Shown: in pieces, positions 1 to 17,632 of the stretch
Layout: each line of letters opens with the position of its first letter
Position numbering within the stretch: position 1 is the first letter of the stretch
Virus record (IMG/VR): IMGVR_UViG_3300039018_000309
Span: 1 to 24,123 of that record
Reading direction: 5' to 3' (one strand)
DNA length: 24,123 nucleotides
From: a virus
The notes under the pieces: generated by a model
Told to the model about the DNA's origin: nothing
What the model saw: the letters and a program-made list of their open reading frames with translations, nothing else
The model's database searches: none
Program-made: the position numbers and the translations under genes

Positions 1-462
1 GTCTTAGACCATGGCATTGACTCGCCGGAAGCGCAGGACGCGCTTAACGAGCATCTGAGCGGTTTAGATGAAGCCTTAGATCTCTCAGCGGAACGGTATT
101 GTGGTTTTATACGCGAGCTAGAGATGCGAGCGGAGGCGAGGAGCAAGGAAGCTTCTCGCATCCGTGCGCTCGCGGCGGCTGATGATGCCCTTGCCACGCG
201 CCTCAAGGAAAGACTAAAGGCGGCAATGGAGACGGCTGGCAGGTTGAAGATGGAACTGCCGAGTTTCAAACTTTCGATTGCTAGCAACGGAGGCAAGCAG
301 TCGCTTCAGATTGACGACGATGCCATCAAGGGACTTGAAGTCCCGCTCGTCAAGATCGTCACCGAGCCAAACAAGGAAGCGATCCGAATTGTCCTTGAGG
401 CTGGCGGCGAGATCCCCGGATGCCGCTTGCTCCCTCGCGGGACAAGCCTTCGCATCCGCTGA
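1..462 (+). CDS. Siphovirus Gp157-family protein (5' end outside the window)
   Basis: The frame is open from the first base to the TGA at 460-462, so the gene enters from the left and its start is not visible; the ATG at 124 is internal. The visible part has 153 residues. The first half is a charged helix typical of a coiled coil (ERYCGFIRELEMRAEARSKE onward). It is followed by a basic helix (RLKERLKAAMETAGRLKME), a beta segment (SFKLSIASNGGKQSLQI) and a C-terminal part in which a lysine-aspartate-glycine region is followed by IPGCRLLPRGTSLRIR. This architecture, helix then 'm...gr.k..', 'f.l.i' and a final 'iPGcrL..g.sLrIr', is that of the Sipho_Gp157 family. These are small phage proteins of the early/replication region, proposed to act in resistance to superinfection or as nuclease inhibitors. 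It is the only gene on the + strand and is followed by a strong terminator, so it probably ends an early transcript. Family call fairly sure, function unsure. Confidence 0.8.
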   Translation, partial: VLDHGIDSPEAQDALNEHLSGLDEALDLSAERYCGFIRELEMRAEARSKEASRIRALAAADDALATRLKERLKAAMETAGRLKMELPSFKLSIASNGGKQSLQIDDDAIKGLEVPLVKIVTEPNKEAIRIVLEAGGEIPGCRLLPRGTSLRIR

Positions 463-466
463 CCTA

Positions 467-895
467 CTACCTTGCCTCTCCCTCGCCGTTGCCTTCGGGT
501 GGCGGCGAGGTTTCTTTTTGCCCGAATGGGATCAGGCGGTTCAGCGCCTCGCGCCGCTTCGCGCACGGGCCGCAGGAACCCGCCTTGATGCCAACGGCGC
601 TCGTCATCGCTGCGACCACGTCACCGAGTCCACGCATCCGAGGGGGCGCAACCGTTCCCGGCGCTGGTGGCTGCATTTCGGTGGTCAGCTTGGCGCGGGC
701 AACGGCAGGTCGAGCGCCGAGGAAGAGGGGCGGGTCAACGACATTGCCTTCCCGCGTCTCGCGCTCCTCGCAGGTCGCGCACTTGGCTACGTCAAGGTTC
801 TTGAGGCAGATGGGTTGTGTGCCAGCCACGCGCCACGACTTGCAATCCATGATCGGGAGCGAGATGCCGGATACGTTGAGCGTGCCGATGGTCAT
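467..895 (-). CDS. Small Cys-pair protein, possible zinc-binding virion or late protein
   Basis: This is a 142-residue ORF whose ATG overlaps the stop of the upstream Cys-rich gene (ATGA at 892-895), so it is the last gene of the late operon. Two short cysteine clusters stand out: ICLKNLDVAKCATCEERE (C-x8-C-x2-C) near residues 29-40, and SCGPCAKRREALNRLIPFG near residues 108-125. Together with C18 they could make one or two zinc knuckles. Between them is a low-complexity Pro/Ala/Thr linker, and the tail is rich in Glu/Gly/Pro. The C-terminal CxxC-x-(K/R)R-x-x-LN pattern is common in small phage proteins of unknown role. The final codons overlap the + strand terminator. I do not recognise the family. 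The gene is supported by the ATGA coupling and the two CxxC pairs. Confidence 0.6.
   Translation of the reverse strand: MTIGTLNVSGISLPIMDCKSWRVAGTQPICLKNLDVAKCATCEERETREGNVVDPPLFLGARPAVARAKLTTEMQPPAPGTVAPPRMRGLGDVVAAMTSAVGIKAGSCGPCAKRREALNRLIPFGQKETSPPPEGNGEGEAR
481..519 (+). terminator. Intrinsic terminator after the Gp157-like gene
   Basis: A 13-bp stem (481-493 with 498-510, including G-U pairs) closes a UUCG tetraloop at 494-497 with C-G next to the loop, and is followed directly by TTTCTTTTT at 511-519. This is a classic rho-independent terminator for + strand transcription, 18 nt after the Gp157-like stop. It lies within the last codons of the opposing minus-strand gene (stop at 467). 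It has no U-tract on the minus strand, so it should act in one direction only. Confidence 0.9.
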
Positions 896-2739
896 GATGT
901 GAGGGCGACGATTGAGCCGTCAGACTTGCAGTAAATTTTGGGGTCTTGGAACGAGCGTAAGCAAGGTTGCGGAAGGGGATGGTCGATATCCCATTGACCG
1001 CCCGGCGAGCAGTCTGCTCCCTGTGGGCAACACGGCGCGACTTCATAGGTGAATGGGTAGGCGTAGCAACCCGTGCGCGGGTCAGGCATCCCGGGACAGA
1101 GCGAAGACCAGCCGTAGACAAGGACGATGATGTTGTTGCCAATCGTGACCGTGATGTCATCAAGCGGCCAACCATCGCGGGCTTCGCAGTTGGTCGCGTC
1201 TTGGTAGAAAGCAATGTCCACGCAGATCGGGATATCTGGCGACGCGTATTCCTGCACGCGCTTCATGGTGTACCGCTGCCCAAACGAATACTCAGGGAAG
1301 GACAGGCATTGAATGACGAAGTTGTTCGGGGTCGCGGTGATAGCCGAGATGGACGCGTTACAGGTGTTTTCGCTTGTCATCCGCCAAGGGTGATCGACAA
1401 GCAAGGTCTGCGACGCGCAGGCGTAGTAGCGAGTGGACGCGCCAACGAGCGTGACGGTGATGTCTTGATTTCCGTTCGTGAACTCCACGCGGTCAACCGT
1501 CAACGTGTCGCCCTCAGAGAACCCGGGGCGGTCGTTTGGGGTTTGCCAGTCGCAGGTAACGCAGGACTGGCGATTGCCGAACCAGAAGTATGCCGACCAC
1601 GGTGGGATGCCGGAAGCCGTCACCAGCGCACCAATGCGGGTATTGATGCGCTCGGCAATGTGCGCGGCGTTGCCGGAGAAGATGACGATGTCAAGACCGC
1701 AGACACTCAGCTTGGGCGCTCCGAGTGTTCCCCAGCCTGTGGCAACTGTGTTGTTTTGGTCGATATGGACAATCCCGGACACACCAAGGAAGAGGGCATT
1801 CAGCGCTGCCTGAGCGCCCGGGCTTTCGGGGTCGATCCCCGGCGCAAAGCAGGCCGGGAAGACGATGGTCATGATGTCCTCTTCATGGACGGGGCATCCG
1901 AAACTGCCGAGCGAGTAGCACGTCCGTACGTCATACGTCTCAAAGCGATCCTCGAAACTATCGCAGAAGTTAGGATCTTGAGCGCAGTTTCCTGTAGTGT
2001 TGCCGCAACAATCGCCTTCAGGGTCGCAATCCGGACAATTCATGTATTGGATGTAGGACTGGGTGACTTGGTTCGGGCAGTTGGCAGGGCTAGCGGGGTC
2101 GCGCACGGTGCAGAAACCCATCTCCTGCGACATACCCACGTCGAGGCTAACGATCTCAACTGGCGGCCCGTGGTCGCAACGAACGTCCCACGGCACTCCA
2201 ATCGTCTCAATGCAGGTACGGGCGGAGCTTGCAACCGTGACGCTCTTCCCCTTGACCGTGCCAGCCTGATCCTTGAAGTCGTAGCACTCGGCTACCAATT
2301 CCTCGCAAGGGAGTTGCGTGTTGTTCGCAATGGCAGGGCCGTACTGAGGGATTTGGATGTTGGCAATCCCGCCGGGGTTCCCTTGCTGCTGGGGATCGGC
2401 ATAGCAACACGGGTTTTCCCCTACAACGCGGTTCTTGATCTCGACTAAATAGCCCACGTTGACTGGGTAAATCGAGAGCGGGTTCGGGCATGGCAGGGCT
2501 TCCGTCCCGATTAGGACATAAATACAGCAGTCATAGCTGATGAAATAGCACTTTGTCGCAGTCTCTGGCGGGTCGGGAATGCCTATCGAGATCAGATAGC
2601 CGATGCAGAACTCAATGCGGTCAGGAGCTTGAGCGCAATCAGGCTCGCAGCAATAATCGGCGAAGTAGTCCTCGCACTTGAGGGCGTACCACAACACGCC
2701 GGGGTCGCAGCAACACGAAACCGCCGGGAGTGCGCTCAC
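892..2739 (-). CDS. Extremely cysteine-rich late protein, function unknown
   Basis: The product has 615 residues and begins at a GTG that overlaps the preceding stop (GTGA at 2736-2739). No Shine-Dalgarno is evident, so translation is probably coupled to the tiny ORF upstream. By my hand count it holds about 44 cysteines, including a CCC near residue 9, several CC pairs and dense clusters such as NCPDCDPEGDCCGNTTGNC. The rest is Asp/Pro/Gly/aromatic-rich and poor in lysine, as in secreted beta-rich proteins or adhesins, but I see no classical signal peptide. It follows the tailspike and membrane/lipoprotein cassette and precedes a second Cys-pair protein. Possible roles are a disulphide-stabilised host-recognition protein assembled in an oxidising compartment or after lysis, or a metal-binding virion protein. 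No known family is recognised. Confidence 0.75.
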   Translation of the reverse strand: MSALPAVSCCCDPGVLWYALKCEDYFADYCCEPDCAQAPDRIEFCIGYLISIGIPDPPETATKCYFISYDCCIYVLIGTEALPCPNPLSIYPVNVGYLVEIKNRVVGENPCCYADPQQQGNPGGIANIQIPQYGPAIANNTQLPCEELVAECYDFKDQAGTVKGKSVTVASSARTCIETIGVPWDVRCDHGPPVEIVSLDVGMSQEMGFCTVRDPASPANCPNQVTQSYIQYMNCPDCDPEGDCCGNTTGNCAQDPNFCDSFEDRFETYDVRTCYSLGSFGCPVHEEDIMTIVFPACFAPGIDPESPGAQAALNALFLGVSGIVHIDQNNTVATGWGTLGAPKLSVCGLDIVIFSGNAAHIAERINTRIGALVTASGIPPWSAYFWFGNRQSCVTCDWQTPNDRPGFSEGDTLTVDRVEFTNGNQDITVTLVGASTRYYACASQTLLVDHPWRMTSENTCNASISAITATPNNFVIQCLSFPEYSFGQRYTMKRVQEYASPDIPICVDIAFYQDATNCEARDGWPLDDITVTIGNNIIVLVYGWSSLCPGMPDPRTGCYAYPFTYEVAPCCPQGADCSPGGQWDIDHPLPQPCLRSFQDPKIYCKSDGSIVALTS

Positions 2740-2783
2740 GCGACTATGACAATGCAGAGGGCGAGGATGAAGATACGAATCAT
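2736..2783 (-). CDS. 15-residue hydrophobic leader-like ORF
   Basis: The ORF reads MIRIFILALCIVIVA then TGA. Its ATG overlaps the TGA of the 34-residue ORF upstream (ATGA at 2780-2783). Its TGA overlaps the GTG of the Cys-rich gene (GTGA). A weak AAGG lies about 7 nt before the ATG. The peptide is almost wholly hydrophobic and could sit in a membrane. Equally, it may exist only to deliver ribosomes to the GTG start that follows. No homology can be judged at this length. The evidence is the double four-base overlap and the lack of any other ribosome binding site for the next gene. Confidence 0.4.
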   Translation of the reverse strand: MIRIFILALCIVIVA

Positions 2784-2884
2784 CGCTTTGCCTTCTTCAT
2801 GCAGAGATACCAACCAGCGCCGAACGCAACGGCGGCAGCGGCGAGTGCGAACCAGATATTCCCTAAGGTGTCTGCAAGAATCAT
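2780..2884 (-). CDS. 34-residue single-span membrane protein
   Basis: The ORF encodes 34 residues: a short acidic N-terminus (MILADTLGN), one hydrophobic span (IWFALAAAAVAFGAGWYL) and a basic tail (CMKKAKR). The order, span then positive tail, fits a small inner-membrane protein. The ATG lies 2 nt after the TAG of the lipoprotein gene and has AAAGG about 7 nt upstream. The stop overlaps the next mini-ORF. Position in a membrane-protein cassette at the end of the tail module would suit a small holin or holin regulator, but size and topology are the only evidence. It could also be a membrane-anchored accessory factor. Confidence 0.55.
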   Translation of the reverse strand: MILADTLGNIWFALAAAAVAFGAGWYLCMKKAKR

Positions 2885-2886
2885 GT

Positions 2887-3378
2887 CTATGCCTTTCGTC
2901 GAGTCTTTGATTTTCTAAACGCCGCATCGAACAAAGGATCCTGTGCCCGCATCGCGGCCACCATTTCCCGCTCGCCCTCAGGGCGATCTGTATCTAGCAT
3001 ATCGACCGCAAGCTCCGCCGCAACTACTTTCCGGCGAGGAAGCCAGCCAATAGCGACCCGTATCGCCGTCCCTAGCCCGGTCTGCCACAGGACAATGACG
3101 AGCGCCACCGCGACCACGGCCACCGCCCCGTAGGTCAGCATGGTCATCCACGCAGGGGTCTTGTCCTCCACCCCGGACAGGCTGACATGAATCCCGGACG
3201 CGAGCGCCTCGATACGGGTAGCCCGGGCAACAACCTCCGCGTCCCCGGTTTCCGTCCCGCGCTGGATCAGACCCTGCGCCTCGGCGCGGATGTCGTTGGA
3301 CGACTGCGCGATCCTCTGCACGGGGCTACAACCCGCGAGGAGGGCAAGCATGGCGAAGGTGAGCCACCAACGGCTCAA
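2887..3378 (-). CDS. Lipoprotein with a central membrane span
   Basis: With the TTG at 3376-3378 as start (TTGA overlap with the upstream stop), the product has 163 residues and begins SRWWLTFAMLALLAGC. This is a lipoprotein signal: basic n-region, hydrophobic core and an LAGC lipobox with the cysteine at position 17. The frame stays open upstream to 3606, but that extension is Arg-rich, lies over the preceding gene and would bury the signal peptide, so I reject it. After the cysteine comes a polar helical stretch. A strong hydrophobic span follows around residues 85-105 (MLTYGAVAVVAVALVIVLW), then a second weaker hydrophobic segment and a charged C-terminus. A lipoprotein encoded right after a small membrane coiled-coil protein recalls an i-spanin/o-spanin pair. 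However, o-spanins normally lack a second span, so the assignment is tentative. Confidence 0.6.
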   Translation of the reverse strand: MSRWWLTFAMLALLAGCSPVQRIAQSSNDIRAEAQGLIQRGTETGDAEVVARATRIEALASGIHVSLSGVEDKTPAWMTMLTYGAVAVVAVALVIVLWQTGLGTAIRVAIGWLPRRKVVAAELAVDMLDTDRPEGEREMVAAMRAQDPLFDAAFRKSKTRRKA

Positions 3379-3639: not shown

Positions 3640-5856
3640 TTATGGAGGGGTAATGATGCTGTCGGTGTTGGCCGTGTTGTTGTATTCCGGAGGAACAAAT
3701 GTGCTTGCCACAAGCGCCCCAGCCGAACTGTATTCGGTCACGACATGGGTGTACCCATACCCACCAGTCTTTTGCACATTGCAAGCCGCCCCGGTATACG
3801 CTTGCCTTTGCGATATGTCGTTAATAAACATGATGCCGCTATTTGAATCGGCTGACGGGCGACGCGCAAGGAAAGGATACATTGGACTGTTTAAGTTTCC
3901 AATCCCTTGCAGGCTCATGTTATTAAACGAGTCTCGAATCGAACACCTAGACGCACTCTTATAGGTTGCCACGATTGGAATATTGGCTGGAATGTAGCCA
4001 CTTCCGGTGGTTAGCAGAGTCGTCCCCGTAACCACTCCTCCAGTAAGTGAAGTAGATCCTGTAGCCTGAACAACAGTACCAGCAACTACCCCGCCACCAG
4101 TTGCAAACGTCAACGTAGGCGCAGAAACATATCCTGATCCGCCGTTAAGAATAATAAGCGAATTTACTGTGCCGTCCATATTTACACGAGCGACAACAAC
4201 GGCTGTGTCTCCAGTTGGTGATGCCGAAGCGGTAACACGCGCAATATCGCCACACAGAAACGACCCTCCAAGATCACCGTTTTCAACAGTACATCCAACT
4301 GCATAGTCAAACCAAATAAGGGCTTCCCTTTTATTCGCTTCGGGCTGTGCGCTTCCGCCAGTAATAAGTGGGCCGCTTAAATTTGTATTTCTTATGCTAG
4401 TGTTGAATGTTATTTTTGCCTCACTATGGCTTCCAAATCGAATAGGGCAAGTTACATTTTCTGTATAAAAACCATCAATCGACGCGCACCTCCATGCTTT
4501 AATCCACATTCCATATCGGCCACCCTGTGCCGTCAAGTTAGAAAACGAACTTGATAAAGAAGTCCCCGAACCATGAACCCCGGTATTTGCTTGATAGTCA
4601 AGAAGGAAATTGATTTTTGTTTCTATGTTAGACGTGTACCAATTAGAACAACGATTGGCATTGAAATCAGCGCCACAAACAAAACCAATTTCCGTAATAA
4701 CCGATCCGGATGTGTTTAAGTTTTTAAGTTCACAACCCCATACCTGATTGAAAATAAATCCATACTGACCACTAAATCCACGGAGGGTAATGTTGTTAAT
4801 AATTCCGTCGGTGTAGTTTTTAACATACAAGGCGGTTGTTGCTGTTCCTGAAATTCTAAAGGCTCGCAACTCGTTTCCAAACGCAATACCAATAGGTGTC
4901 TGGGTTGTGCCGACCGCCGCTATTGCTGCGCCTGTAATGCTTGTGGCAACGATGTTTGAATTCTCGCCTACCCCGTAAATTGTGCGCTTTGGAGCGTTGG
5001 TGCTACTAGCGGGAATGGCGTTGATCGTAGACGTGATCTTGTAGTCGCCCGCTGGGATAAATACATTCAGCCCGGTAGTGATTGCCGCTTGAATTGCTGC
5101 TGTGTCATCCGCGACACCATCTCCTACTGCCCCGAAGTCTTTGACGCTCACGGTGTCGCGCAGCTTGTTCTGAAGCGTCCGCGTTGTCGCGCCGGCTCCT
5201 GCGGCAATGAACGACAGCCGCGCATCGTTGCCTATGGTCGCCGTAGTGCTTGTCGTGCCATAGGCAACGGCAAAGGAGCGGTTTGCGCTCAAGTCGCCGC
5301 CTCCGGTCAAACCCGTGCCTGCGGTCATGGTCGTAGCGCCGAGCGCCTTGGCGGCCAAGGATGCTGTTAGCCCTGTGATCTGCGCCTGCCCAAGGGTCAG
5401 GACATCAGAGCCGCCCGTTGCGTGTGAACTTGCATGGGTGTCTGGGGTGCGGGCGTTGCTTAGGCGGGCATCATTACCTACACAAGCAGTAGAGCCAGAC
5501 GTTCCGTAAAGCGTGTTGAGGGTCACGTCCGCCGAAAGAGCGCCGCCACCACTTAAACCCGTGCCAGCAACGACCTGCCGTGTAGTTGCCACCTTAGCGG
5601 CAAGAGCCGCGCTCAGGCCAGTAATTTGAGATTGCGCCAAGGTAAGGGGGTCGGTTCCAATATCCGTATGACTGCTCGCATGAGCGGCTGGTGCGCCGCC
5701 ACCTGAAAGCCGAGCATCGTTGCCTTGGCAGATCGTTCCGGCGGCTGTGCCGAAGTCTGCCGCAATGGTTCCCGTCCCGGTAACCGTTCCTCCGGTCAAA
5801 CCCGTGCCAGCGGTGATGGCGGATACCGCCCCTACGTTGATGACGACATCGGCCAT
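3640..5856 (-). CDS. Tailspike/tail fibre with pectate-lyase-type beta-helix
   Basis: The product has 738 residues. Residues 1-216 hold three tandem copies of a shaft repeat: AGTGL(T/S)GG, then GNDARLS, HASSH, a G-x-D-x-LTL segment and QITGL-x-A-x-LAAK. At about 236-275 comes KLRDTVSVKDFGAVGDGVADDTAAIQ followed by FIPAGDYKI. This is the entry motif of Pectate_lyase_3/right-handed parallel beta-helix tailspikes, which bind and often cleave surface polysaccharide. The remaining part is rich in Asn, Ser, Thr and Gly, as expected of beta-helix rungs. It contains two GSGY-x-(S/P)A motifs near its C-terminal third. Its start overlaps the upstream stop (TAATG). The beta-helix half is visibly AT-richer than the shaft and the neighbouring genes, as expected for an exchanged host-range module. 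Whether it is enzymatic is not decidable here. Confidence 0.88.
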   Translation of the reverse strand: MADVVINVGAVSAITAGTGLTGGTVTGTGTIAADFGTAAGTICQGNDARLSGGGAPAAHASSHTDIGTDPLTLAQSQITGLSAALAAKVATTRQVVAGTGLSGGGALSADVTLNTLYGTSGSTACVGNDARLSNARTPDTHASSHATGGSDVLTLGQAQITGLTASLAAKALGATTMTAGTGLTGGGDLSANRSFAVAYGTTSTTATIGNDARLSFIAAGAGATTRTLQNKLRDTVSVKDFGAVGDGVADDTAAIQAAITTGLNVFIPAGDYKITSTINAIPASSTNAPKRTIYGVGENSNIVATSITGAAIAAVGTTQTPIGIAFGNELRAFRISGTATTALYVKNYTDGIINNITLRGFSGQYGFIFNQVWGCELKNLNTSGSVITEIGFVCGADFNANRCSNWYTSNIETKINFLLDYQANTGVHGSGTSLSSSFSNLTAQGGRYGMWIKAWRCASIDGFYTENVTCPIRFGSHSEAKITFNTSIRNTNLSGPLITGGSAQPEANKREALIWFDYAVGCTVENGDLGGSFLCGDIARVTASASPTGDTAVVVARVNMDGTVNSLIILNGGSGYVSAPTLTFATGGGVVAGTVVQATGSTSLTGGVVTGTTLLTTGSGYIPANIPIVATYKSASRCSIRDSFNNMSLQGIGNLNSPMYPFLARRPSADSNSGIMFINDISQRQAYTGAACNVQKTGGYGYTHVVTEYSSAGALVASTFVPPEYNNTANTDSIITPP
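5209..5850 (-). repeat. Three tandem shaft repeats in the tailspike N-terminus
   Basis: Three protein-level repeats run from about residues 1-93, 94-175 and 176-216 of the tailspike; the last is shortened. Each contains AGTGL(T/S)GG, a threonine/alanine-rich strand and GNDARLS; the first two continue with HASSH and QITGL...LAAK. They probably form the trimeric shaft that attaches the spike to the tail. Copy number could vary by recombination. Confidence 0.8.
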
Positions 5857-6212
5857 TAGACTGCTCCTGCTTTGGTGTTTACTTGGGCAGCGCCGAGCGA
5901 GATAAGCCGCTTGGTGACGCTGGAAGGGAAGAAGATGTCGAGGTCGTACCGGGCGCTGCCAAGGGGCATAGCGGCGGTCGTAGCGGCTGGGACTTTAATG
6001 GTTGCCACGGTCATGGCTACGTTCAGGGTAATCATTGGGCTTGCCCCAATGCTAGAAGCGACAAGGAAGCCAGCCACGTCAGGCTGGGACACGGTCAAGC
6101 GCCACTCGGTAGCCGTATTGAGGGCGGGGTAGGTGTTCGGCCACGTTCCCACGCTGACCGTCTCTTGGTATTCCGCGCCCCTTGAGAAGATGATGTTCCA
6201 CCGCTGATTCAT
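5856..6212 (-). CDS. Small tail-associated beta-sandwich protein
   Basis: The product has 118 residues and starts at an ATG with a good AAGGAG site 6 nt upstream, in the 23-nt gap after the preceding gene. It begins WNIIFSRGAEYQETVSVGTW and has alternating hydrophobic strands (EWRLTVSQPDV, ITLNVAMTVATIKVPAATTA). It ends with ARYDLDIFFPSSVTKRLISLG-AAQV. The order 'W-x-I-x-x-G-x-x-Y/F', then a strand with T/S-rich turns, then 'YDL-x-(V/I/F)...(V/K)RLL.G' is the pattern of small phage beta-sandwich proteins of the LtfC/BppU-like type that sit between baseplate and fibre. The position just before the tailspike supports a connector or chaperone-like role. The family link is by pattern only. Confidence 0.5.
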   Translation of the reverse strand: MNQRWNIIFSRGAEYQETVSVGTWPNTYPALNTATEWRLTVSQPDVAGFLVASSIGASPMITLNVAMTVATIKVPAATTAAMPLGSARYDLDIFFPSSVTKRLISLGAAQVNTKAGAV

Positions 6213-6235: not shown

Positions 6236-8020
6236 CTACGGCTGCTGTTCGGTGCAAGTTACCTTAACCGCGTTCGGCATTGAGAACCAATATTGCGGTT
6301 CATAGGGAGGAGTTGGCATTCCTTGATCCGTGTGCGTCGGAAACTGCTCAACCATGTGAACGATGGTGTCGTTGCAGATCGGGAGCGCCTCAACGGTCGC
6401 GTTGTTGTAGTGCGACTGAAGCACCCCGGGCGCAATGCGGGTCGGGCTGGTGTTCCCGTTCTCGGCCATGTTGCGGGCAACAACTGCGCCCGCCGCCGTG
6501 CGGGCGTATGCCCCGATGGAGACGCTTGGGGTAGCGCCAACGGTCGGGTTTGGTTCAACCTCCACAAACGAGTACGCCCAGCGCCAGTTGCCGTAGGACT
6601 GGTTACCTGTGATCTTTGCCGGGAACGAGCGGCACATAGGAGGCGGTACGTCAATGATGGTCGCCCCAACGCAGTTCCGGTACGCCTGCGCGTTGCCCTT
6701 GGCGGTAACGATATCCCTCGGCTCGCTCCAACTCGTCCCCTGCAACCCGAATCGCCAGTCGGTTTCGTCCGCCGAGGAGATCGTGTAGGGCGAGAACTCC
6801 CCATCAATGACCGCAAGGCGGTAGGAGACGTTCCCGAGTTGCCCGATGGTGACCGTTGTTGACGTGTACCACGGAATCCAACCAGCCCAGACCGTCCGCC
6901 CGAAGGGGATGTTTGAGTTTCGAGAGGCGTAGTCGTCCCGCATCTTGGTGGACAGGGTGGTCGGGTTCCAACCCGGCGAAGTCGTCAGCACCGCCCCGGT
7001 ACTGTCCTGCACCACAATAGACGCGTCCGTGATGTAGGCCGCTCCGATGTCGTTTGGGGCGCGGACAAAGGTTGCCGCCGAGCCTGCCGCGTAGACCTGA
7101 TTCGTTGTAAAACTCTGCCCGGTAGCGGGGACGTTGGCTAGGGTGCAGTTGTCGTAATAGGTCAGCCCCTCAACCATGCGCTGGGGGAACACCACGCTAC
7201 AGGTGAGCGGAGCGCGAGCTTGATACCCCGTTTGGTTGTACAGGGAAACGAGTACGTTGCTACTCGTGGACGCGCCATTGACGGGCTGCATACCGCCGCG
7301 CATGGCGGTCTGGTAGAGCTGCATCCGGGTGTTGTACTGCGCCTTGAGGTTCGACCGGGCAATAAACCGAGTCACCGACCCGTCGCTAATGATGACCTGT
7401 TGATTGGCTACCGCGACCGCGTCAAGCACCATAGCAAGGCTGACGTTCGGGGAGCCATAAAGGTCGCTCAAGCGCCTCATGTACTCCGGGCTTTGCACCG
7501 TAAACCCGGTAGGGGCGGTCAGGTTGTCGGCGCTTGCCGCCGTCCCAATCTCTGTCAGGAGTTGGGTGTAGGTCAGAATCGGGGTAACCGAGTTCGTGTC
7601 ATTGACCTGCCAGCGACCATCGGACGACCACGTTTGAGCGAGGGCGATACCAAGGACGGCCGCCGATGAAAACTGCCAGTACCAACGCTCGTCCACCAAT
7701 TCCACTAGCACCGCGCCGCCTTGTTGCGTCCAATAGAACGGCTGCGGGGGTCGAGCGTACAAGCCGCTAATGACCACCGACAAGCCACTTGAATCCTCAA
7801 GGGTCAAGGAGACGGTGAGATTTGCAAACAGCGCCGCCACCTGAGTTGATGCAATCAGGAAGCTAGCGCGGGTGTTCTGCGTCATCCCGACTGGGACATC
7901 AACCGAGAACAGGTCAGCCTCTGGGATGCCGATCTGCCGCGCCGTGTCCTGCATGACAGCGTCAGGCAACAGGACAGGGATGATCGTCTGCCCTGACGTG
8001 ATGTACGCCTGTACGCCCAT
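6236..8020 (-). CDS. Large tail-tip structural protein (putative hub or receptor-binding)
   Basis: The product has 594 residues and starts at an ATG overlapping the previous stop (TAATG). It is beta-rich, with many T/S/N/G, and has no signal peptide or coiled coil. The N-terminal 130 residues (QAYITSGQTIIPVLLPDAV..., ending in VLVELVDERWYWQ) look like a domain that packs in the tail tip. The C-terminal third contains GNWRWAYSFVEVEP, then VVARNMAENGN, then APGVLQSHYNN with ALPICNDTIVHMVE, and closes with WFSMPNAVKVTC. That end resembles a small beta domain with an N-x-x-E-x-x-N core that I associate with phage tail proteins. Placed between the short tape measure and the spike, it should belong to the tail tip. 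Exact role unknown. Confidence 0.6.
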   Translation of the reverse strand: MGVQAYITSGQTIIPVLLPDAVMQDTARQIGIPEADLFSVDVPVGMTQNTRASFLIASTQVAALFANLTVSLTLEDSSGLSVVISGLYARPPQPFYWTQQGGAVLVELVDERWYWQFSSAAVLGIALAQTWSSDGRWQVNDTNSVTPILTYTQLLTEIGTAASADNLTAPTGFTVQSPEYMRRLSDLYGSPNVSLAMVLDAVAVANQQVIISDGSVTRFIARSNLKAQYNTRMQLYQTAMRGGMQPVNGASTSSNVLVSLYNQTGYQARAPLTCSVVFPQRMVEGLTYYDNCTLANVPATGQSFTTNQVYAAGSAATFVRAPNDIGAAYITDASIVVQDSTGAVLTTSPGWNPTTLSTKMRDDYASRNSNIPFGRTVWAGWIPWYTSTTVTIGQLGNVSYRLAVIDGEFSPYTISSADETDWRFGLQGTSWSEPRDIVTAKGNAQAYRNCVGATIIDVPPPMCRSFPAKITGNQSYGNWRWAYSFVEVEPNPTVGATPSVSIGAYARTAAGAVVARNMAENGNTSPTRIAPGVLQSHYNNATVEALPICNDTIVHMVEQFPTHTDQGMPTPPYEPQYWFSMPNAVKVTCTEQQP

Positions 8021-15395: not shown

Positions 15396-16277
15396 GCTGG
15401 CCTCCTCCTTGGTAGTCGTCGGGATAAAGGTATTGAGTCCACCACCAGCCCCGACGAGGTCATGGTTGGACTTAGAACAAGTGATCTTCTCGCCCTTGCG
15501 GGTGAAATGGGTATCCGGGAGGGGACGGCGCGGGGTTTCACGCCCGAGCAGCGCCACCTCGGAGAGGTGATTTGAGCCTGACCAAATCTCAGCCGACCGA
15601 CGCGGGAAGGCGTTGGTGGCAATGAATCGGTCGAAAATATCGCGGTTTACTTCCATGTCGCCCACAATGTACCCAATTCCATCGCGTTCTTCGTAGGAAA
15701 TTGTGGGGAATCGACCGACAGCGGACTTCGGTTCCTTGCCGTCCTTCTCGTGCATGATGACGAGGCGAGGAAACGAACCGCGAGCCATGTGCTTGCGCGT
15801 CGATGCAACGATGTCCTTGAGTCGCTTGTTGTTGAACCGCTTCAGCTCTGGATCCGCCTCCCCGTCATCTATGGCTGGGTCAAACGCCATGAACAGTTCA
15901 ACGCGCTCAATCATGACCTTGTCGCCGTCTTCGGCAACGGTGTGGGATGTCTTTGCGTTCACGGTCTTCTCCTCTTTGCGGTCTAGTTCCTTGTCCTTGC
16001 GCTCCGCCCACGCCTTGCCCGCATCGCCGCCCCACAGGAGCCACGCGATATAGCCAGCGGAATCCTTGCCCCAGCCTTCGCCCTGCTTGTCCACCTCATG
16101 CCGAGCGAAGTAGGACACCATCCGGCGCACGGTTTCGGGTGAAAGGTTCGCCCGGTTCTTGATGTCACGCGCCCGCGCCACGCCGATCTCCGTGCCACCC
16201 CTGCCGTGCTTCTCGCGCAGCTCAAGGCCACGGGCAGCATTGGATGCCATCTCGGTCGTTGGCTTCAGGTCAATCAT
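14781..16277 (-). CDS. Mu gpI-type head maturation protease fused to scaffold
   Basis: The product has 498 residues in three parts. Residues about 12-95 carry a basic domain with ELREKHGRGGTEIGVARARD and RRMVSYFARHEVDK, then AGYIAWLLWGGDAG. I recall this as a small domain found beside or inside phage capsid proteases. Residues about 120-265 are the protease: ERVELFMAFDP, RLVIMHEKDG (His176), GYIVGDMEVN and FPRRSAEIWSG (Ser228), then VALLGRETPR. His and Ser are the likely catalytic residues of the Mu gpI/prohead serine protease class. Residues 295-498 are the scaffold: a very acidic stretch, a basic coiled coil (about 385-425) and a C-terminal capsid-binding end. The start overlaps the upstream stop (ATGA). 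An internal start gives the scaffold alone. Confidence 0.85.
   Translation of the reverse strand: MIDLKPTTEMASNAARGLELREKHGRGGTEIGVARARDIKNRANLSPETVRRMVSYFARHEVDKQGEGWGKDSAGYIAWLLWGGDAGKAWAERKDKELDRKEEKTVNAKTSHTVAEDGDKVMIERVELFMAFDPAIDDGEADPELKRFNNKRLKDIVASTRKHMARGSFPRLVIMHEKDGKEPKSAVGRFPTISYEERDGIGYIVGDMEVNRDIFDRFIATNAFPRRSAEIWSGSNHLSEVALLGRETPRRPLPDTHFTRKGEKITCSKSNHDLVGAGGGLNTFIPTTTKEEASMASSDDMREELEAMKCAISELSDMMKKKFADDSDDKDEMAADDDEMKDEMAEEDGQVHIDIESHDVEAGEEDEMEDESVIASRRSTYALRSENARLKSRFARLEAELKREKFEREVEIMEQEGYRIPDSQREALVGQLQASRNPVALLESWRDLFARDPIGTKIDMSRAALPRGMDIGDVGSLVKQFAGKPEEFAKAINARMKG
15401..15410 (-). promoter_or_regulatory. Internal Shine-Dalgarno for nested scaffold
   Basis: AAGGAGGAGG on the minus strand, inside the protease frame where it encodes Lys-Glu-Glu-Ala. 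Two overlapping GGAGG-type cores sit 8 and 5 nt from the internal ATG. Confidence 0.8.
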
Positions 16278-17632
16278 GGGGTGGTCAGGGTCTGAATCTG
16301 GGCATCAGACAACCGCGTAGGGAAATATTTGAGGGTGCGGATACTGTTGTTGAGCATGACACTTGTATCGGTAATGCTTGTCCCATTTATAGATGGGCCG
16401 CCAATACTTAGGAACGTCGGGGCAACACTAAACCCTAGCGTGTTGGTAGCGACCGTCCCGCCGTTCAGGCACAGGCTTGTAGCGGTACTGGCGTAACTAA
16501 ATGCGCCCTTCGTCAATGCGTTGGCTGTCAGGCTGTTTGCTGTTGTGACGGTCGCTACTGCTAGGTAGTCTGCTAGCCGCAGCGTGAGCGCGGAAGGGGT
16601 CTGGTACAAATGCAAGTGCTGGTCATCTACATCACTCGTTGCTATCACAGAGCGGGCGGTCGTACTTGACGCGCTACCGTACCAATTAGAAACAAACGTA
16701 CCCGTTGTCCCGCCCGTGTACCAAGAACTAAAGTTTGTCCCGGCGGCAATGATGGCGGTATCTACTGCTCGCGTGACTGTACTTGCACCTGTAAGAATTG
16801 TTGAAGATGCAACGGAACCTGTTTCTAGTTGTGCGCCCCAAATGTAGTTTGTGCTTGCGGCAGATGTATCAAGGTTGGGATAAACGGTTAGAAGTACACT
16901 TGATTGACCACTAACCGTAGTAAATACCACCGACACACGCACCCAACGGTCAGTTGGGATGTTGGAAAATTGTGATCCGAATCCCGATGCGTTGTTAATT
17001 GTTACAGCAGGATCGTTACAACTACCCACCGTAGTCAGCGCACTTCCGCCGTTAAACGGAGCCAATCGGAAATATGTTGCGCCGCCAGTTCCGGCGCGTA
17101 CCCACATACTGTAGGTGTATTGCTGCAATGCTGAAACTGTTTCGGCTGTAGCAAGGCGCTGAAATGTAATATTACTTGCCTTAAAGATACTTGTTCCGGT
17201 GAGCGAACCGCCGTCAGGGCCATCAATGCGAGCGACTGGGTTTGGCCCAGAAGATTGAGGTACTGAGTTAATAGAAATAGCGTTTCCGATTCCCCAATCG
17301 CCTCCCCAGCAGTATTGACCCTGCCGACACAAATTCGTTGTTGGGGCTTCTAAGAGCAAGCCTTTGGCAACCCCTCCAACGAAATCAAACCGAGGCGCTT
17401 GTGGTTGCCCGGCTGGTACTGTCTCCACATAGCCAAGGCTGTTGATGAACGTAGCCCGAGCCGTAGCGTCTGCGCGGCTAAACGTGATACGCGAGTCAAG
17501 CGTCCCGCTCATCGTTGTGAAGTCAAGGGACAAGGTCGAGCCGTCGCCAGTTTCAGCCACGCGACCCATCAGCTTGCTCGCACGAGACGAGCCGCTGATC
17601 CGTGACATCCTTGGACGATTCGCTCGATTCAT
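16274..17632 (-). CDS. Carbohydrate-binding/LamG-like virion protein
   Basis: The product has 452 residues and overlaps the protease start by four bases. After a basic N-terminus comes TFSRADATARATFINSLGYVETVP with PRFDFVGGVAKGLLLEAPTTNLC. This is a motif widespread in phage structural proteins that precedes carbohydrate-binding jelly rolls. Residues about 125-270 look like a CBM_4_9-type domain (YTYSMWVRAGTGGATYFRLA, TDRWVRVSVVFTT, NYIWGAQLETGS). Residues 290-452 look like a concanavalin/LamG-type domain ending NSIRTLKYFPTRLSDAQIQTLT. Such proteins usually bind surface or mucus glycans. Its place inside the head block, between MuF and protease genes, suggests a head-attached fibre rather than a tail part, but this is inferred from order only. 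Confidence 0.72.
   Translation of the reverse strand: MNRANRPRMSRISGSSRASKLMGRVAETGDGSTLSLDFTTMSGTLDSRITFSRADATARATFINSLGYVETVPAGQPQAPRFDFVGGVAKGLLLEAPTTNLCRQGQYCWGGDWGIGNAISINSVPQSSGPNPVARIDGPDGGSLTGTSIFKASNITFQRLATAETVSALQQYTYSMWVRAGTGGATYFRLAPFNGGSALTTVGSCNDPAVTINNASGFGSQFSNIPTDRWVRVSVVFTTVSGQSSVLLTVYPNLDTSAASTNYIWGAQLETGSVASSTILTGASTVTRAVDTAIIAAGTNFSSWYTGGTTGTFVSNWYGSASSTTARSVIATSDVDDQHLHLYQTPSALTLRLADYLAVATVTTANSLTANALTKGAFSYASTATSLCLNGGTVATNTLGFSVAPTFLSIGGPSINGTSITDTSVMLNNSIRTLKYFPTRLSDAQIQTLTTP

Follow-up and report, generated by a model that had tools for sequence, protein, structure and literature searches.

In the Alteromonas phages A5, V22 and P24, tail fibres and their cognate chaperones or caps form modules common to distantly related phages (PMC10579305), and in marine phages the variable regions described as metaviromic islands are enriched in host-recognition genes among otherwise similar, co-occurring phages (PMC3909814). 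The locus described here resembles the Alteromonas modules in that a presumed recognition protein and a small cognate partner are transferred as a unit among phages that differ in morphology. It differs from them in that the exchanged bodies gave no sequence match to known tail-fibre families, contain 5-9% cysteine and follow a constant N-terminal part of about 11 residues with a CCC triplet, and in that exchange of the partner is confined to its N-terminal part, the C-terminal motif being constant. Compared with the metaviromic islands, the junctions have fixed positions within two genes, and it is unannotated families of cysteine-rich proteins that vary.

A further comparison is offered by the T4-type gp38 adhesins (S16-like), with their polyglycine motifs and exchangeable tip. 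One member of the present set (L061), on a contig with a T4-type gp32, is alike in having a stretch rich in glycine behind its CCC tag, whereas the protein of the window has neither a glycine-rich domain nor polyglycine motifs, and no homology to gp38 was found.

The cysteine-rich gene and its partner

The window, meaning the whole stretch of DNA analysed, is the linear 24,123-bp IMG/VR record IMGVR_UViG_3300039018_000309. Its late genes are those of a tailed phage, with a Mu-type portal (PF06074, E 1e-44), a MuF protein (PF04233), a head-tail adaptor and neck proteins, together with weak matches to tail-tube and major-capsid proteins. Portal and terminase gave only distant matches with respect to the host, mostly below 28% identity. 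The features on which the analysis rests are the following.

467-895, minus strand: partner gene, 142 aa with six cysteines; its ATG overlaps the stop of the cysteine-rich gene by 4 nt
524-631, minus strand: constant C-terminal motif of the partner, GLGDVVAAMTSAVGI..CGPCAKRREALNRLIPF, kept across unrelated bodies; matches phrog_32048
632-895, minus strand: N-terminal part of the partner (DCKSWR...C...CxxC...), varying with the body; its clusters track the body clusters
892-2739, minus strand: cysteine-rich protein, 615 aa with 44 cysteines (7.15%), GTG start at 2739; has relatives and an AlphaFold model
895-2706, minus strand: exchangeable cysteine-rich body, replaced by unrelated bodies between near-identical flanks
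2707-2739, minus strand: constant N-terminal tag of 11 codons, MSALPAVSCCC; its CCC start recurs in all full-length relatives and in unrelated bodies, and DNA homology breaks here
2736-2783, minus strand: hydrophobic 15-aa ORF MIRIFILALCIVIVA, overlapping the start of the cysteine-rich gene
2780-2884, minus strand: 34-aa ORF with a single TM segment, MILADTLGNIWFALAAAAVAFGAGWYLCMKKAKR; relatives lie just upstream of the cysteine-rich gene in several clades
2887-3351, minus strand: lipoprotein-like protein of lysis type, with an LLAGC lipobox and a later TM segment, start uncertain; conserved in L014, L119, L133 and L135
3375-3638, minus strand: small TM protein, holin-like; weak PHROG matches including the holin phrog_4237 (E 0.1)
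3640-5856, minus strand: tail spike or fibre with a pectate-lyase-like domain (PF12708, E 8.6e-12; phrog_1197, E 2.7e-35)
5856-6212, minus strand: LtfC-like beta-sandwich protein, conserved immediately ahead of the spike; the Pfam match is below cut-off

A preliminary description, drawn from the letters of the window, had singled out the open reading frame at 892-2739 for its approximately 44 cysteines in 615 residues; the coordinates proved exact, and the strand is minus. The cysteine clusters it had noted amount to a single CCC (residues 9-11) and five additional CC pairs (30-31, 71-72, 111-112, 244-245 and 570-571), besides two CxxC. The density, at 7.2%, stands out as claimed against mostly 0-2% in the other genes of the window (late genes 0-1.8%, partner 4.2%). 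The frame is coding rather than fortuitous, because relatives at 34-94% identity retain the cysteines. It lies with the tail genes in the late operon. A hydrophobic signal sequence, which had likewise been reported missing, is absent from the start of the protein, both in the window (MSALPAVSCCC) and in close relatives (MSRRRSCCC).

The second, smaller CxxC protein that the same description had pointed out is the partner at 467-895. Where downstream sequence is available, almost every locus has such a partner, which overlaps the 3' end of the cysteine-rich gene, usually by 4 nt, or abuts it; in L099 it was missed by the automatic choice of start, and the near-identical L100 has it. Its consensus consists of an N-terminal part, DCxSW...C...CxxC, and the C-terminal motif RGLGDVVAxxTxAVGIKPCGGCxKRREALNRLVPF. 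It is this motif alone that matches phrog_32048, a family of unknown function (E 3e-4 for the window, 2e-8 for L054), with the cysteine-rich body lying outside the match. The motif also occurs in the Nonlabens phage P12024S, in a gene near a terminase gene with no annotated cysteine-rich neighbour, and in a 65-kb contig (L227:4480-5150) it follows a short cysteine-rich protein that has CLPCCGC in place of CCC and stands beside tail-like proteins.

Unrelated bodies exchanged between fixed ends

The same C-terminal partner motif is found behind at least five other cysteine-rich bodies, unrelated in sequence (279-514 aa, 19-34 cysteines), which have only the start M[ST]xxx..CCC in common with the protein of the window and gave no significant Pfam or PHROG match, only sub-threshold ones. 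By sequence the bodies fall into six clusters. A common N-terminal part of the partner was found in 157 of 175 body-homologous pairs as opposed to 1 of 231 other pairs, while 220 of the 231 pairs with unrelated bodies had the C-terminal motif in common; the pairs are not independent of one another, and Fisher P values are therefore only descriptive.

Three contigs (L052, L219 and L200) place the junctions precisely. Their flanking DNA is 92-96% identical over kilobases on both sides, and the bodies enclosed, of 601 aa (L052, window family), 489 aa (L219) and 315 aa (L200), are without detectable mutual similarity. Homology on the left ends at 8032-8034 in L052, at 3473 in L219 and at 3995 in L200, with gene starts at 8001, 3442 and 3964, so that homology takes in the first 32-34 nt of each gene, the tag itself measuring 33 nt; on the right, homology restarts inside the partner gene. 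The same combinations of body, tag and slot recur in all three contigs of the L219 type and in many of the L200 type, from different IMG datasets. Swapping is bounded by the codons of the tag on one side and the motif of the partner on the other. The variation is one of whole-body replacement, not of point changes at fixed sites. Recombination within the body as well is shown by an apparent chimera (L198:3571-4971), in which similarity to the window family covers the first ~115 residues and is lacking in the remainder. On the backbone of the window (tail gene 57-96% identical), every examined contig with more than ~4 kb of room has a CCC gene in the slot, and this gene therefore looks needed.

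The cassette across phage backbones

Sequence comparison places the cassette in no fewer than three phage backbones that are unrelated to one another, and probably in four. The cysteine-rich proteins of the window and of L019 are 75% identical, and the portals belong to different Pfam families (PF06074 and PF04860); the other called genes in common are the partner and a LamG protein at 34%. In L135 a cysteine-rich protein 45.5% identical to that of the window is accompanied by the lipoprotein likewise shared with the window; the head is unrelated, and the cassette precedes two very large Cys-free proteins (1196 and more than 2000 aa), ~5 kb from the lipoprotein gene. The upstream late genes of L213, L216 and L217 resemble those of L135, and other bodies are carried there. 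The contig with the T4-type gp32 encodes a 1077-aa version (L061:3602-6835), in which a long insert rich in glycine comes immediately behind the CCC tag; in the partner of this version the N-terminal part is conserved and the C-terminal part differs, ending in another cysteine motif (weak DUF6171 match). The reverse situation is seen in L122, where tail genes 52-62% identical to those of the window are combined with a cysteine-rich protein only 39% identical. Unlike backbones with similar cassettes, and in L122 the opposite, thus indicate that the cassette evolves apart from the backbone.

Conservation of the cysteines and predicted fold

Scans of IMG/VR with progressively broader alignments retrieved relatives on ~60 contigs, all of them metagenomic, the identities spanning 25-94%; the scans were pattern-based, so these counts are lower bounds. 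The remark that no known phage family came to mind is borne out: the protein of the window found no match in Pfam, PHROGs (none at E<=1) or PDB sequences, and in the 50,697 cultured-phage records of INPHARED none was found for this protein, for L061 and its partner, or for the L219 and L222 bodies. A pattern-limited search of bacterial and archaeal genome contigs gave no confirmed relative, and no paper on comparable cysteine-rich phage proteins was found in the open-licence literature, genome collections and open papers being incomplete in coverage. The cysteine-rich proteins are a previously unannotated set.

Whether the cysteines are conserved among homologues, a point on which the preliminary description had made its reading depend, is answered by 35 cysteine columns that are invariant across 33 non-redundant full-length relatives. 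Against ten distant members the cysteines of the window protein are 92% identical, the next residue (proline) 59%, and overall identity at non-cysteine positions is 33-50%. On a tree built without the cysteine columns, the 60 inferred cysteine changes fall on 16 branches as compared to 27 expected from branch length. Lone changes number 3 where 13 are expected (P about 6e-4, same tree), and branches with an even count are slightly in excess (P 0.036), the changes often coming in twos or fours. Such clustering is the pattern expected from gain and loss in pairs, to which alignment error and rate variation could contribute. Near-absolute conservation with changes that occur together, as found in these 33 sequences, is what a disulphide-rich protein of secreted type would be expected to show. 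Odd cysteine totals (43, 49, 51 and 53) occur among the relatives and therefore not all cysteines can be in internal disulphides; the idea of parity with every cysteine paired was dropped on this account.

AlphaFold2 gave a pLDDT of 33 with an alignment of 7 sequences and of 84.8 (pTM 0.78) with 43 sequences; the latter, a monomer model, shows a mostly beta protein and is of low confidence over the tag (residues 1-12). The best Foldseek match of the whole-chain model (BFVD, PDB) had E 0.1, and VIA-align reached Z <= 4.2; secretins, suggested as fold relatives by weak VIA rows of Z <= 4.2, were not accepted. Profile and structure searches, which had been proposed at the outset as the way to check the protein, thus returned no ordinary family and no convincing fold match. 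The modelled protein appears to belong to no recognisable known family; a new fold is not thereby proven, the search having been made with the whole-chain model.

Disulphides or metal ligands

Across 23 bodies the CxxC spacing is at chance (ratio 1.01), CxC is at 0.61 and CC is raised (1.37), with no CxxC or CxC enrichment of the kind seen in zinc-binding or metallothionein-like spacing. Histidines number 0-8 per protein (L104 has 43 cysteines and none), and the cysteines are spread along the chain. Because CxxC is at chance, CC is raised and histidines are few, the cysteines are more likely to form disulphides than to serve as metal ligands. A thioredoxin or DsbA gene was found in none of 19 related records; given also the missing signal peptide, we infer that oxidation would have to follow lysis or to be assisted by the host or by the partner protein.

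The preliminary description had left two options, a disulphide-armoured host-recognition protein that folds after lysis or a metal-rich virion part. A disulphide-stabilised host-recognition protein is now favoured, as the body swaps between near-identical phages at a fixed slot in, or at the end of, the tail/late region and moves between unrelated backbones; the metal-rich part is weakened by the lack of CxxC enrichment and the little histidine. A metal-binding or iron-sulphur part of the virion, with cysteines as the ligands, would be in keeping with 44 cysteines and two CxxC in the body, and the CxxC pairs of the partner could bind zinc. We nevertheless consider it improbable in view of the spacing statistics, the scarce histidines and the spread of the cysteines, to which is added that cysteine changes cluster on branches in twos and fours, as for pairs.

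Proposed function and alternatives

Taken together, the gene probably represents one allele of a cassette of late genes that is open to exchange, and the most likely product is a part of the particle surface that is rich in disulphides and used in host recognition. Exchange and conservation can be read directly from the sequences; the virion location, the disulphides and the recognition role we infer. A part of this kind is favoured because fixed ends combined with a body-specific partner portion represent an anatomy of docking plus specificity, comparable to that of tail fibres and the chaperones or caps specific to them. As in modular receptor-binding proteins, a constant 11-residue CCC tag, by which the protein would be attached to the tail, precedes unrelated bodies in one slot, and a specific partner directly downstream changes with the variable part. 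Support comes further from the position of the cassette within, or at the end of, the tail/late operon and from the glycine-rich insert of L061, as in some tail adhesins. Against it count the lack of sequence or convincing fold similarity to known tail or adhesin families, the location of the window-clade gene next to lysis-type genes instead of directly after the spike, the odd cysteine totals, the lack of a thioredoxin or DsbA gene in the 19 related records, and the fact that hypervariable cassettes can have other roles.

Mechanistically, the CCC tag and the partner motif would act as docking elements that join the exchangeable body to conserved components of the tail, and the cysteine-rich body would bind the host. 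The N-terminal part of the partner might help to fold, cap or attach its own body, and the cysteines, mostly as disulphides, would close once the particle leaves the reducing cytoplasm. More tentatively, and as a conjecture to which we give less than even chances, the CCC tag and the CxxC...R..ALN motif of the partner could form a shared 'socket' locked on the tail by a disulphide or a metal, with unrelated adhesin bodies and their matching partner N-terminal parts exchanged by homologous recombination and hardened by oxidation after lysis.

The neighbourhood in the window clade, where the gene follows holin-like, lipoprotein and TM genes, invites a different reading, namely of a non-virion protein that is made late with the lysis genes, is released at lysis to act on neighbouring cells, on the envelope or on competing phages, and varies as its target varies. 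Release by lysis needs no signal peptide, and released proteins may be disulphide-rich. We regard it as rather unlikely, however, since in L135, L213, L216 and L217 the cassette comes after conserved late or structural genes, in L135 at a distance of ~5 kb from the lipoprotein gene, and since the constant tag and partner motif suggest docking, for which a free protein would have no need. Exchange of accessory genes at fixed sites is, in general knowledge, common between near-identical phages, and a hypervariable cassette with a counter-defence or accessory role, and with no part in particle structure, could be kept in such a hotspot of swapping. Yet accessory cassettes normally swap as whole genes, whereas exchange here is in frame within two genes and leaves a constant start and a constant partner end; considering also the CCC gene in every examined same-backbone slot with more than ~4 kb of room, this explanation is very unlikely. 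That chimeric assembly put unrelated bodies in one backbone would deserve attention in view of every sequence being metagenomic; it is largely refuted by the same body/backbone junctions in many contigs of different IMG datasets and by body types that track the partner N-terminal part, leaving it a negligible probability.

If the preferred reading of a surface recognition module is true, annotation has overlooked a host-recognition system of uncultured phages, none of its bodies being matched by a profile. With the constant tag and the partner motif as a handle, further bodies could be found and recognition modules predicted in phages without isolates. The question is raised of the route by which a protein of 19-60 cysteines, made in the bacterial cytoplasm without a signal peptide, arrives at its mature state.

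Additional observations

Hydrophobic ORFs of 14-15 codons like MIRIFILALCIVIVA overlap the start of the cysteine-rich gene in L051/52, L103, L109, L200 and L219 and are absent from SRRR-type relatives. They may represent a membrane micropeptide or a translational-coupling element, because hydrophobic residues are kept while codons vary. A split signal peptide, with this ORF, which overlaps the GTG start in the other frame, joined to the protein by frameshifting, was considered and rejected, the ORF being missing in the MSRRRSCCC types, L028, L029 and L054 and no slippery site being seen. One relative (L021:5293-7342) contains ~200 extra bases that repeat part of the gene and break the frame, possibly an assembly duplication. 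The LamG/concanavalin-like protein of the window (16274-17632, minus strand; PF13385, E 9e-7) lies among the head genes, and its relative in L019 near the cassette. At the window edge an opposite-strand gene (124-462, plus strand) encodes what we take to resemble a Gp157-type early protein.
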